Source: a virus. From it: a DNA stretch of 24,130 bases. How positions within the stretch are numbered: the first letter of the stretch is position 1; every line of letters begins with the position of its first letter. Under the pieces are notes generated by a model. It made no database searches, was not told where the DNA came from, and saw nothing but the letters and a program-made list of their open reading frames with translations. Of this stretch, positions 2,677-17,850 are shown piece after piece. The stretch spans positions 1-24,130 of IMG/VR virus record IMGVR_UViG_3300043409_002517; one strand, 5' to 3'. The position numbers and the translations under genes are program-made.

Positions 2677-3151
2677 GCACACTATCTAATGTTTGCAGAG
2701 TTTCACCGATATCTTTGTGAAGTATACCGATACCGCCTGCCTTGTTGAAAACATCAATCACATCTTCTGTATCATCAATTAAGATGGTATTAGGAGTTGC
2801 ATATGATGCTTTCAAACTTCTTTGAGGAACCACATTTCGTTTGTATGCGAGTCCCTGTTTCTTTAACCAAATATCTTTCTGTTCGGCAACCAAGTTATGG
2901 TATTTTGCACCGCCAGATGAGGTTAGTATTTCAATTGGTAATTCTGTCCGTCTCACATATCGCAACAATTCAATTGCACCTGGAAAGATATCCAAGGTTT
3001 CAAATTGTTTCGTCATAATGAAATCTGTCCAGTTTTCAGACCAATTCTTTTTGTCTCTGCTTGAATTTGGTGCTTCATTGTACAATTCTGTATATCGTTT
3101 TTCGAAATCGCACAATACGCCATCCATATCAAGGTAAATTTTCTCAATCAT
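2648..3151 (-). CDS. HAD-superfamily 5'(3')-deoxyribonucleotidase-like phosphatase
   Basis: The 167-residue protein has the HAD motifs in order: DMDGVLCDF (D8 nucleophile, D10 acid/base), ILTSS around residues 75-79, a basic region near 104-114, and ILIDDTEDVIDVF with D126/D127 binding Mg2+. The layout matches small 5'(3')-deoxyribonucleotidases, which dephosphorylate dNMPs and help nucleotide balance. The start chosen is the ATG at 3151, not the in-frame TTG just before it: AAGAAGG lies at normal distance and the ATG overlaps the gp59 stop by 8 bases. The gene sits between 59 and 32. The substrate cannot be told from the sequence; a polynucleotide phosphatase is possible. Confidence 0.85.
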   Translation of the reverse strand: MIEKIYLDMDGVLCDFEKRYTELYNEAPNSSRDKKNWSENWTDFIMTKQFETLDIFPGAIELLRYVRRTELPIEILTSSGGAKYHNLVAEQKDIWLKKQGLAYKRNVVPQRSLKASYATPNTILIDDTEDVIDVFNKAGGIGILHKDIGETLQTLDSVLAKQLNTVI

Positions 3152-3740
3152 CAATCACCTTCTTCAATATAAGTTTATATTTTACACTATCCTTAGGAAG
3201 AAATGTGGCATACTTGGTGCATTTTCGCCTGTATTCTGGCCACCGAATAGTGTCTGTTATCTTCTTAGACCACATAGGAAAGAATCCAAGAATGTCATTG
3301 AGAATACACAAGGTTTCAATCTGTATATCTCTCTGTAAAGTCTTCGTCAATAGACTAGGATAGTCACCATCATGCACAACAATCAACTCATTAGGGTTAG
3401 AACAGCCGTCAAATATCTTTGTTAAATCATTCTCAAATGTATACGACAGCGATTGAATTACCTTTTGTCGTTTTCGATAATTTATATCTGCTTCTTCCAT
3501 CAATAGGTTACCTACCCAAGACTTCTCATCTTCTACAAAATTGGCAACAACAAAATTAATTAAATCATCTTTGTTATTACATTTGCGAGACAGTTTGTAA
3601 AAGTGGTACTTGTCTTTTCTATTTTCGAAAGTTGTTACATTAACGCTGGTCTTACCATTGTATTTTACAAAATCATAATTGTCCGTTGTGAAATGTAACT
3701 TGAGTGCCTGATAGATTTCAAATGTTTCATAACCAGTCAT
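3144..3740 (-). CDS. 59: Replicative helicase loader gp59
   Basis: This 198-residue basic protein follows the T4 gp59 pattern (217 residues): an early YDFVKYN like T4 YDVIKYN, then RKDKYHFYKLSRK like RRDKYFFQKLSEK, LINFVVANFVEDEKSWVGNLL like the NLVAN-AWIGD segment, and FENDLTKIF like FEEDIRNIY. In T4 it binds fork DNA and gp32 and loads the gp41 helicase. Gene order supports the call: gp33 overlaps upstream by 4 bases, and gp32 lies one gene downstream, as in T4 apart from the inserted nucleotidase. It would act at the replication fork in the cytoplasm. Confidence 0.92.
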   Translation of the reverse strand: MTGYETFEIYQALKLHFTTDNYDFVKYNGKTSVNVTTFENRKDKYHFYKLSRKCNNKDDLINFVVANFVEDEKSWVGNLLMEEADINYRKRQKVIQSLSYTFENDLTKIFDGCSNPNELIVVHDGDYPSLLTKTLQRDIQIETLCILNDILGFFPMWSKKITDTIRWPEYRRKCTKYATFLPKDSVKYKLILKKVIDD

Positions 3741-3964
3741 ATTGGCAATCTAGCACCTTTGTCTTTTAACATATTATTATCCATTGCGTTAGCTTCAATC
3801 TTTGATTTAAGGTTAGAGTTAATCAATGTTGCAGCCACTTCAATTTCAAGACCAGTGGATTTACAATGGTCAACAATTGCTTCTATGTAATTGAAATCGG
3901 TATTTGCAACAAGAGATTCTATAGACTTGGCAAATTTTGCCATTTCATCTTTAGTTGGCATCAT
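3737..3964 (-). CDS. 33: Late transcription coactivator gp33
   Basis: The protein has 75 residues, shorter than T4 gp33 (112). The core aligns by eye: FNYIEAIVDHCKSTGLEIE matches the FIIEKMVEEFGMSYLEA region, and SKIEANAMDNNMLKDKG matches EKIQSEAIDENLL. The end LPI resembles marine T4-like homologues. gp33 bridges RNA polymerase and the gp45 sliding clamp at late promoters. The start is ATGATG at 3964, overlapping the upstream gene by 14 bases; the second ATG is equally possible. The gene stands between dsbA and 59 as in T4. What is lost relative to T4 is N-terminal. Confidence 0.88.
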   Translation of the reverse strand: MMPTKDEMAKFAKSIESLVANTDFNYIEAIVDHCKSTGLEIEVAATLINSNLKSKIEANAMDNNMLKDKGARLPI

Positions 3965-6889: not shown

Positions 6890-7125
6890 TACTTTAGAAA
6901 TAAGATATATGTTGAATAGGCGAACAAGGCCATTATACACACTTTTGCAATCAATGTCAATAGATAAAACAACTGAACACGGAAAAGATACAACACAACA
7001 AATAACAAAATAACAAAGACTAACTCAGTACCGTTAACCGAAGAATTTTCAACCTTCGTAATCGCTGGTTCTGCCGCAATCTTAATTTCTTCAATTGGTT
7101 TAACATCTTGTAAAATCAAAGGCAC
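6889..7125 (-). CDS. Small two-span membrane protein (78 residues)
   Basis: The GTG at 7125 is the start because GGAG lies 7 bases upstream and no ATG follows in frame before the membrane part. The first 30 residues are polar (KPIEEIKIAAEP); two hydrophobic segments then run to the end (about 34-48 and 52-76). It comes directly after the tmRNA terminator, so it probably needs read-through or its own promoter. No family was recognised; size and topology would also fit a holin, though it is not beside the hydrolase. Confidence 0.75.
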   Translation of the reverse strand: MPLILQDVKPIEEIKIAAEPAITKVENSSVNGTELVFVILLFVVLYLFRVQLFYLLTLIAKVCIMALFAYSTYILFLK

Positions 7126-7146
7126 AATATCACTCCATCATAATAT

Positions 7147-7181
7147 AAAAGGTTGGTTATTCTGTTACGAGGAAACCAACC
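7147..7181 (-). terminator. Intrinsic terminator of the tmRNA gene
   Basis: An 8-bp perfect stem GGTTGGTT/AACCAACC (7181-7174 with 7158-7151) with a 15-base loop is followed on the minus strand by TTTTATATT. It lies 18 bases after the tag stop codon. It may also serve as the last helix of the coding piece. Confidence 0.8.
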
Positions 7182-7198
7182 AAAACCCTAAGCGGCTG

Positions 7199-7231
7199 TT
7201 AGGCTGCTAATGCGAACTGTGAGTCGTTTGC
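7199..7231 (-). other. tmRNA proteolysis tag reading frame
   Basis: Resume codon GCA, then AAC GAC TCA CAG TTC GCA TTA GCA GCC TAA, encodes ANDSQFALAA. It follows GTAAAC, as in other tmRNAs. The AND start and the LAA end match bacterial SsrA tags; LAA is what ClpX recognises. The stop lies in the P5 hairpin, as in E. coli. Confidence 0.93.
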
Positions 7232-7428
7232 GTTTACTTTTTTTTCTTCTTTTTACATCGTTGCTGATGTGCTGTCCACTCTGTTACTTGTTGCCCTGTC
7301 GAAACTATGCACCCCCATCAGAAGCACACCCATTAGAGCCCATAAAATGGTTTCTTTCATCTAACACATGCACTTCTGGTGGAGGTGGGGGGATTCGCAC
7401 CCCCGTCCAGAACACTTTTTACTTTACT

Positions 7429-8106
7429 TCATACAGCAATATCACGCCAGTATTTATCAATAAATTGATTCAATTCTGGCAAATATTCTTTCTTGTCTTT
7501 CACAAATATCTGTGGCACTTCTTCTTCGGTTGCAATTGCTACCACAATCTTATTGATTGGTTTATTTGTAATCTCTCCAAACATCTCAGCATAAGCTGAA
7601 CATTGCATGAAGTAATTACGAATGTGACCTTCTTGTTTTTCCTTTGTAGAAGATTTGAAGTCAATTACCGACAACTCACCATCCCACTCCGCAATCAAGT
7701 CAACACGACCTGCCAATCTTAGACCATCACTATACAATGCCTGTTCAAGGCAGTATACATTACCAACATGTTTATCTAACTTAGGTCTCAATTGACCGAA
7801 CATCATTTTATCTAACGGCATTAGTGTCTGCCGCTTCATCTCAGTCAACTCACCAAGAATATACTTCTCACACAAGGTGTGTAATTGTGTGCCACGGCGA
7901 GAAGCACGACCTGCAATCTTATTTGCTTCTTCAGCACCAACTCTTTGTCGCCATTCCATAATTGCTTTCTTATTGTAAGAAGACAATACAGTAGTGACGG
8001 AAGGATATCTTGCACCATTTGGTGTTACATATTTTCTTCCAGATTCAGTTGTTTCAGCTTTTAAATCAAAGTCTAATTCAGGTAGTTTTATAAAGTTAAA
8101 GGTCAT
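7429..8106 (-). CDS. PD-(D/E)XK nuclease (RecB/Cas4/MGME1-like)
   Basis: The 225-residue protein has the single-domain exonuclease layout: YPSVTTVLSSYNKKAIMEW at 34-52, RGTQLH at 71-76 (the His often contacts metal), E121, then GRVDLIAEWDGELSVIDFKSS with D136, D149 and K151 as the PD-(D/E)XK core, and QCSAYAEMF as the helix that follows. Such proteins are common in T4-like marine phages and process DNA ends in recombination or repair. It has no iron-sulfur cysteines. It overlaps the upstream 103-residue gene by 4 bases (ATGA), and its stop is only a few bases from the tmRNA, so the two are probably cotranscribed. Confidence 0.88.
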   Translation of the reverse strand: MTFNFIKLPELDFDLKAETTESGRKYVTPNGARYPSVTTVLSSYNKKAIMEWRQRVGAEEANKIAGRASRRGTQLHTLCEKYILGELTEMKRQTLMPLDKMMFGQLRPKLDKHVGNVYCLEQALYSDGLRLAGRVDLIAEWDGELSVIDFKSSTKEKQEGHIRNYFMQCSAYAEMFGEITNKPINKIVVAIATEEEVPQIFVKDKKEYLPELNQFIDKYWRDIAV

Positions 8107-16334: not shown

Positions 16335-16925
16335 TTATGTGTAGTTCAAATAACTATCTGCTATACCAAATGCAATAAGGTCCTCAGGAGTCATCCACAC
16401 ATCTGTTGGTGGTAACAACTTTGCTCTTATCGTTTTCAAATCTAAATCTGTTGCTTCTTTAAGAATGTTTGCCATTCTTTTATTCGTTGATTCCATTTCT
16501 TTACCATATGCTTTAAGGTCATGGTGTTTTCCTTCAGCTGCACAAGAATATTGGTGACACATGATACTAGTATTTCTAGCAATGAATCTTTCACCTCTTG
16601 TACCACATGCAAAAATCAGAAACGCTGCTGATATCACAGAACCTACACCAATAGTTCGTATCGGATGCCTAGAGTTCTTCATTACATCAATCAAAGCAAA
16701 CGCCTGAGACAAATCACCACCAACTGAATTAATCATTAGTGTAAGTGTTTTCTCTGGTTCTGGATTGAGATTTTCATATACTATCCAACGGATAACTTCT
16801 GATACACTTTCTTCATCAATATCATTGCCTAGGTAATGGAAAGATGCAGAAAGTAATCCGAGATTAACCGTCTCGGATGCGCTCATTATTTCATCTAGTT
16901 CTTTTTTGTTAGTCTTTGTTGCCAT
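16335..16925 (-). CDS. clpP: ClpP-like serine protease subunit
   Basis: The 196-residue protein (start ATG at 16925, overlapping galE by 17 bases) has the ClpP fold: LTLMINSVGGDLSQAFALID (the oxyanion loop SVGG at 67-70), GVGSVISAAFLIFACGTRGE with nucleophile S99, RFIARNTSIMCHQYS with H124, and LPPTDVWMTPEDLIAFGIAD with D175. The triad is complete. ClpP forms two heptamer rings and degrades substrates fed by ClpX or ClpA. No Clp ATPase is in the window, so a host partner would be needed. A phage tmRNA in the same window adds an LAA tag, the classic ClpXP signal. Alternatively it could process phage or host proteins alone. Confidence 0.9.
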   Translation of the reverse strand: MATKTNKKELDEIMSASETVNLGLLSASFHYLGNDIDEESVSEVIRWIVYENLNPEPEKTLTLMINSVGGDLSQAFALIDVMKNSRHPIRTIGVGSVISAAFLIFACGTRGERFIARNTSIMCHQYSCAAEGKHHDLKAYGKEMESTNKRMANILKEATDLDLKTIRAKLLPPTDVWMTPEDLIAFGIADSYLNYT

Positions 16926-17850
16926 TATGCCACTCATATGCTGTTTTAAGAATATCAATTATATCATACTTCGGACTATAGTTCAACACTTCTTTGGCAA
17001 TAGTGGTATCGGCAACTAAACTATCTGCATCACCACTACGGCGGGGATTGACTGTATAGGTAACTTTTTGATTGGTAATTTGTTCTAATGCGGTAATCAT
17101 CTCAAGGATAGAATGGCCTCGGTTTGTACCAAGATTCATTGTAACTGATTTGTTACCTTCAAGTAAATAATTAGCTGCGTTAATATGTGCTTCTGCTACA
17201 TCTGATACATGTACATAATCTCGAATACAAGTACCATCAGGTGTATTGTAATCTGTTCCATACAACTGAAAGTTATTTAGATTCTGAATCATCCGAGGAA
17301 TCAAGTGTGTCTCTGGTTCATGTGATTCACCAAATTCACCATCAGGATCAGCACCTGTTAAATTGAAATATCGGAAAATAACATAGTTCAAACCAGACGC
17401 TTCGATTGCCTGTTCTGCACATAGTTTAGAATTACCATATGGAGAGTTATTGAATTTTTCATCACTTTCTAATATTGGTGAATTCTTTGCTTTGTATACT
17501 GCAGCGGTAGATGAGAATACGAGATTTTTCACACCGTGATGAGACATTACATTAATCAAATTACAAGTGCCACCAGTATTGACTGAATAGAACTCAGTAG
17601 GTTCTTCGAATGAAATTCCTGCTTCGATGCGAGCAGCCAAATGAACAACTACATCAAATTTAATTCTACTAAACAATTCATATAAGGCATCTTGGTCTCT
17701 GATATCTGCATAATGCATCATATCAAAGTACGGATTAAGTGTGTGTCTCTTATGACCGAGGCCAACAACTTTCCAACCAGCCTTCTTTAGTGTTTTTGCT
17801 AGATGACTGCCTAAGTAACCTGCGCCACCTGTTATCAATGCTGTTTTCAT
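16909..17850 (-). CDS. galE: UDP-glucose 4-epimerase-like protein (extended SDR)
   Basis: The 313-residue protein has the NAD-binding GGAGYLGSH at 8-16, D-R near 50 (ADIRD), LAARIEAG at 71-78, FSSTAAVY at 112-119 (catalytic Ser/Thr) and SPYGNSK with Y138 and K142. The later part has FRYFNLTGAD and RDYVHVSDVAEAH, as in GalE, which interconverts UDP-glucose and UDP-galactose (or the N-acetyl forms). It is slightly shorter than E. coli GalE (338). It overlaps the glycosyltransferase gene by 4 bases, so together they may make and transfer a sugar to DNA, virion or host surface. Related 4,6-dehydratases are less likely, since the GalE-like RDYVHVSDVA is intact. Confidence 0.9.
   Translation of the reverse strand: MKTALITGGAGYLGSHLAKTLKKAGWKVVGLGHKRHTLNPYFDMMHYADIRDQDALYELFSRIKFDVVVHLAARIEAGISFEEPTEFYSVNTGGTCNLINVMSHHGVKNLVFSSTAAVYKAKNSPILESDEKFNNSPYGNSKLCAEQAIEASGLNYVIFRYFNLTGADPDGEFGESHEPETHLIPRMIQNLNNFQLYGTDYNTPDGTCIRDYVHVSDVAEAHINAANYLLEGNKSVTMNLGTNRGHSILEMITALEQITNQKVTYTVNPRRSGDADSLVADTTIAKEVLNYSPKYDIIDILKTAYEWHNGNKD

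Follow-up and report, generated by a model that had tools for sequence, protein, structure and literature searches.

A complete circularly permuted tmRNA gene carried by a phage, and the possible role of its intervening segment as an exchangeable cargo site

Phage tmRNAs are known yet little studied. Circularly permuted (two-piece) tmRNAs are an established gene type in phages, a few cultured marine ones included, and the one described here is not a first: the paper on phage Melnitz (2022; PMC9004378) reports 53, 50 of which are aquatic, from 18,146 phage genomes. The present locus, which lies in a stretch of 24,130 nt of viral DNA (IMG/VR record IMGVR_UViG_3300043409_002517; hereafter the window), raises the question of whether such a gene is a working one and what role is played by the segment between its two halves, which is presumed to be discarded. 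We propose that it is a functional phage ssrA gene for ribosome rescue and tagging, in which the slot of the intervening segment (IVS) acts as an exchangeable cargo bay, and we assign this explanation as a whole a probability of about 0.85. The window shows a lineage in T4-like phages of fresh water that is intact and under selection. An overlooked feature is the spacer of such genes, where conserved RNA modules and nested genes for proteins are found. If this is confirmed, a tRNA-processing reaction would serve at the same time to release a further gene product, and both are missed by annotation pipelines.

Structure and neighbourhood of the gene

Positions 7147-7439 of the window, on the minus strand, are a complete and intact circularly permuted tmRNA gene borne by a phage (Table 1). 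The 3' half precedes the 5' half, as an earlier note on this DNA had proposed and as the sequence, ARAGORN and Rfam agree. The scan with the Rfam permuted models, which that note had suggested, returned a full-length match to tmRNA_permuted (RF04321; 127.6 bits, E 5e-25, cut-off 47) and, as the best subtype, beta_tmRNA (RF01850; 112.6 bits, cut-off 84), while ARAGORN, run in permuted mode, called a tmRNA* at 7108-7469 with the tag ANDSQFALAA. CCA is encoded (ACCA, 7380-7377), the 5' half begins at 7316 with GGGGGTG...TTTCGACAGGG, and the tag frame is closed by a stop. The anticipated acceptor of 7 bp with G3-U70 (alanine) is present as GGGGGUG/CACCUCC, and the description of a 60-base spacer with a 9-bp helix flanked by ACCA and TGAT proved exact; this segment folds independently (-18.6 kcal/mol, z -3.65), and ACCA and UGAU alone separate its closing helix from the mature ends. 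The extent first given (7147-7425) was right at its start and too short at its end, as the distal P2 strand takes the gene to 7439. The plus-strand frame with GGGGGIRTPV said to run over the gene does exist, as an antisense artefact.

Table 1. Features of the permuted tmRNA locus and its neighbours (window coordinates)
Feature	Position	Strand	Remarks
gp59 candidate	3144-3740		judged by eye
gp33 candidate	3737-3964		judged by eye
3'-terminal hairpin GGUUGGUU...AACCAACC, then UUUU (7150-7147)	7151..7181	-	most of 7 pairs covary in 24 relatives
Tag frame GCA AAC GAC TCA CAG TTC GCA TTA GCA GCC TAA	7231-7199	-	ANDSQFALAA-stop; ARAGORN
ORF with GGGGGIRTPV	7210-7599	+	antisense artefact across T arm
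UUUCGAC motif, preceded by 5-nt D-linker CAUAG	7298..7304	-	short linker goes with UGC T-loop in relatives
Acceptor 5' strand GGGGGUG, G3-U70	7310..7316	-	pairs with CACCUCC, 7 bp
Intervening segment (IVS), 60 nt	7317..7376	-	between ACCA and mature 5' G; presumed removed in maturation
IVS closing helix, 9 bp	7376-7368 with 7329-7321	-	followed by UGAU 7320-7317
Family A module UUAGAUGAAAGAAACC-AUUUUAU-GGGCUCUAAUGGG	7329..7364	-	within window IVS
3' half: P2 strand, T stem-loop GGGGG UGCGAAU CCCCC, CACCUCC, ACCA	7377..7415	-	ARAGORN, RF04321
PD-(D/E)XK exonuclease, upstream conserved neighbour	7429..8106	-	phrog_298 8.6e-73, PF12705
Distal P2 strand UUGCUGU	7433..7439	-	overlaps last codons of exonuclease ORF; pairs with ACAGCA in 5' half

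The carrier is a freshwater phage and, judged by its gene similarities, T4-like: its gp32 shares 64% identity with that of Pelagibacter phage HTVC008M, its RNase H has its best match in Methylophilales phage Melnitz (51%), and its exonuclease is 47-49% identical to those of cyanophages, which supports the claim of a complete permuted tmRNA in a phage of this kind. SmpB was not seen when the 24-kb fragment was inspected by eye, so that the function of the tmRNA would depend on the host. A ClpP-family protease is encoded at 16335-16958 (PF00574, 113.5 bits; PHROG head maturation protease), alongside the degradation-tagging tmRNA.

Assigning a host by tmRNA similarity or by tag was tried and dropped: blastn against 61 genomes of one beta family returned short conserved stretches only, and of 399 genomes from the order to which that family belongs, one showed the tag pattern ANDxQFALAA, in a standard non-permuted gene. 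Among 50,697 phage records, blastn found no match to the window tmRNA.

Content of the intervening segment

The content of the IVS is, as it appears, the more unusual part of the locus, and this property looks new. Phage segments have a median length of 78 nt (229 distinct), compared with 30 nt in bacteria (55 sequences, mostly alpha and beta, which makes the contrast no census), and the sampled bacterial ones are short hairpins. A closing helix of at least 6 bp is formed in 88% of the phage segments, against 33% with mispaired ends, and 176 of the 229 terminate in TGAT.

To judge from sequence comparison, the IVS of the window appears to hold a conserved, structured and exchangeable module, in the following referred to as family A. 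Its core was found 30 times in 4.7 Mb of fetched loci (some contigs counted twice), always inside a tmRNA IVS. This core is identical in 17 tmRNA backgrounds, an invariance that is partly a selection effect, since the members were mostly gathered by a core-matching pattern; one divergent member (L258) came to light by an independent route. In the structure of the segment 98% of the cells are paired and three pairs have changed on both sides, compared with 26-53% in slid controls. The T arm, acceptor and 5' half that surround family A differ between its carriers, among which are the alpha-like L600, L602 and L603, and because the core is kept under such different flanking tmRNA sequences, it moves as a cassette. 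There is no ORF ending at UGAU in the window IVS, and another reading frame within it (MKETILWALMGVLLMG...), which enters the tmRNA, was rejected: a codon-degenerate scan gave no synonymous variants and the frame diverges in L600, and for these reasons family A seems to act at the RNA level.

A known RNA family was likewise considered as the content of the IVS and rejected. No Rfam family reaches its gathering threshold in the window IVS, and matches up to E 10 in the segments of L606, L117, L223, L228, L258 and L425 are to tmRNA models only, apart from a minus-strand chance match in L223. Further recurring modules with variable closing helices are family B (L117, L439, L448), D (L019, L223, L492, L502), E (L202, L228, L267) and F (L101, L425, L480), and one member of each, scanned against Rfam, had no match within its IVS.

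Other phage segments contain small ORFs of a particular layout: the Shine-Dalgarno sequence is part of the closing helix, immediately behind CCA, and the stop codon is the TGA of TGAT. Such ORFs are present in 18 of 180 IVSs of at least 60 nt, where core shuffles predict 1.6 (s.d. 1.4, maximum 5 in 30); a scan directed at the signature contributed five of the 18 (L278, L281, L293, L298, L300), and 13 are unbiased. Between homologous pairs, pN/pS ranges from 0.07 to 0.47 in the groups of 41-aa, 49-aa and 48/34-aa ORFs and from 0.22 to 0.94 in a 22-aa group (0.94 in one pair); the small proteins encoded in the IVS are mostly under purifying selection. Nested ORFs, many of them membrane-spanning, were seen in L082, L148, L161, L281, L300, L462, L534, L055, L060, L116, L174, L124 and L015. 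The 53-aa ORF of L293 is matchless among cultured phages, and our searches of the open-access literature turned up no mention of IVS ORFs.

Alternatively, the tmRNA could be functional and its IVS neutral filler, any helix-closed sequence being tolerated and sharing being due to recent recombination. The segments indeed range from 20 to 237 nt, their content is highly variable, and many are without an ORF or a recurrent module. We nevertheless consider neutral filler rather unlikely, given that IVS ORFs are about tenfold more frequent than in shuffles, that most homologous pairs are under purifying selection, and that the recurring modules A, B, D and E are closed by helices that have changed. 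For the specific proposal that the phage IVS is an exchangeable cargo site, from which maturation of the tmRNA releases a structured RNA or a small-peptide message, we see the odds as roughly even.

Selection in relatives and variation of the tag

Relatives were reached through the neighbouring exonuclease; most of those found in this way possess the tmRNA, and in the closest ones it lies directly downstream of the exonuclease. In the covariation set of 24 distinct relatives, every sequence keeps the acceptor, the T stem and proximal P2 paired, and the loss of acceptor pairing in close relatives, which the earlier note had named as the sign of a remnant, is thus absent. Acceptor positions 4-6 have changed on both sides (compensatory), G1, G2, G3-U70, G7 and ACCA do not vary, and all six positions of distal P2 are paired in 20 of the 24, with exchanges of U-A for C-G and of A-U for G-C. 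The window tmRNA is under selection. The tag frame is also intact in the relatives, though the tag sequence differs, even among close ones. Tags ending in RIAA, LMAA or RMAA, not ALAA, were noted elsewhere among the phages (L009, L013, L024, L126, L127); endings other than LAA are also common among the sampled bacteria.

The variation of the tag among close relatives would fit a phage tmRNA that mainly competes with or replaces that of the host and so alters the tag, with steered degradation or early amino-acid recycling as the result. Phage tags are unlike the ANDERFALAA or ANDERFAIAA of nearly all fetched beta-type bacterial tmRNAs (which may not be the host's), the window encodes a ClpP-family protease, and amino-acid recycling was proposed for the Melnitz tmRNA by its authors (PMC9004378). 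Against this stands the usual LAA ending of 218 of about 243 distinct phage tags, and we hold altered tagging as the main role to be improbable. Although ssrA fragments that stem from imprecise excision are known from prophages (literature cited in PMC9004378), a functionless piece captured from a host, or a remnant in decay, is hardly conceivable here, because the covariation of acceptor, T stem and P2 across relatives rules a remnant out and the gene is complete, with full compensatory covariation, an intact tag in relatives and a stable place beside the exonuclease.

Proposed maturation and comparison with known permuted tmRNAs

If the locus is, as we propose, a functional ssrA gene with an exchangeable IVS, the tmRNA is probably co-transcribed with the upstream exonuclease, since the two genes overlap. 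By analogy with known two-piece tmRNAs, the precursor would be cleaved by host tRNA-processing enzymes at two places, upstream of G1 by RNase P (the nucleotide at -1 is U) and downstream of CCA; the 60-nt IVS would be freed as a self-closed hairpin RNA, and base pairing in the acceptor and in P2 would keep the two pieces of the tmRNA together. The resulting RNA, relying on SmpB and alanyl-tRNA synthetase (G3-U70) of the host, would free ribosomes that stall in infection and tag the stalled peptides with ANDSQFALAA, and it is reasonable to expect that the phage would have its own ribosome rescue. As the flanking T arm/CCA and acceptor/UUUCGAC are conserved among phages, IVSs may be swapped by recombination, and the slot may have come to carry cargo: small structured RNAs, represented by family A in the window and by B, D, E and F elsewhere, or, in relatives, small proteins. 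Peptide cargo would often be membrane-spanning, with its Shine-Dalgarno sequence in the closing helix and its stop provided by the TGA of the conserved TGAT. Being released by maturation of the tmRNA, the cargo would have its expression coupled to tmRNA processing.

Permuted tmRNAs are common among the phages of IMG/VR, where they number in the hundreds: scans with two motifs of the 5' half and one of the T arm found at least 120, 91 and at least 120 stretches. A tree computed from 155 sequences places the window in a clade made up of 62 phage sequences only, with support 0.87; the bacteria nearest to it are betaproteobacterial but distant, and neither Melnitz nor Mosig is among its nearest sequences. 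Although its score passes the beta_tmRNA cut-off, the window thus falls outside the bacterial beta clade; a real betaproteobacterial gene reaches 251.5 bits with RF01850, compared with 112.6 for the window. Beta-type bacteria differ from the window in their tags (mostly ANDERFALAA) and in having short hairpins as IVSs, and the one bacterial beta example taken in full has a UUC T-loop where the window has UGC. The UGC T-loop, which in the phage tmRNAs sampled first went strictly together with a D-linker shorter by one G, was considered as a novel rewiring of the elbow; this was rejected in favour of an ordinary alternative, because in wider sampling UGC T-loops are found in many bacterial tmRNAs with relaxed D-linkers. 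The tmRNA_permuted model (RF04321) spans the tRNA domain only and, in the available part of its description (PMC11915505), is silent on cargo in the IVS.

In Stenotrophomonas phage Marzo (Menderavirus; L598), a permuted tmRNA lies within a tRNA cluster, and neighbouring T4-like Stenotrophomonas phages match it, frequently without a tmRNA annotation. The ssrA of the Pelagibacter phage Mosig (MT647606) is also permuted and is located between a PD-(D/E)XK nuclease region and gp33, but differs from that of the window in its tag (GEDNFALAA) and its IVS of about 44 nt.

The T4-like (Kyanoviridae) phage Melnitz (MZ577097) likewise has an ssrA of the permuted, two-piece form; in both Melnitz and Mosig the gene is annotated and shares its neighbourhood with that of the window. 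The gene order in Melnitz is exonuclease - tmRNA - gp33 - gp59 - gp32, which the window matches if the gp33 and gp59 candidates hold. A glutamine riboswitch was reported in Melnitz (PMC9004378), unlike in the window, where the Rfam scan detected none. According to its authors the Melnitz tmRNA is alpha-like (PMC9004378), and in our tree it stands far from that of the window; to our knowledge the latter would, on its sequence, represent a separate and previously undescribed lineage. The tags differ as well (ANDNYVPVDYALAA in Melnitz, ANDSQFALAA in the window). In Melnitz (L596, 25985-26437), an unannotated candidate ORF with a Shine-Dalgarno sequence (MFKWLSKTRLVVITRDYFRERNRKADAKIPKYLSGTRSVYDGG...) starts in the IVS of 142 nt and enters the tmRNA, whereas the 60-nt IVS of the window contains family A.
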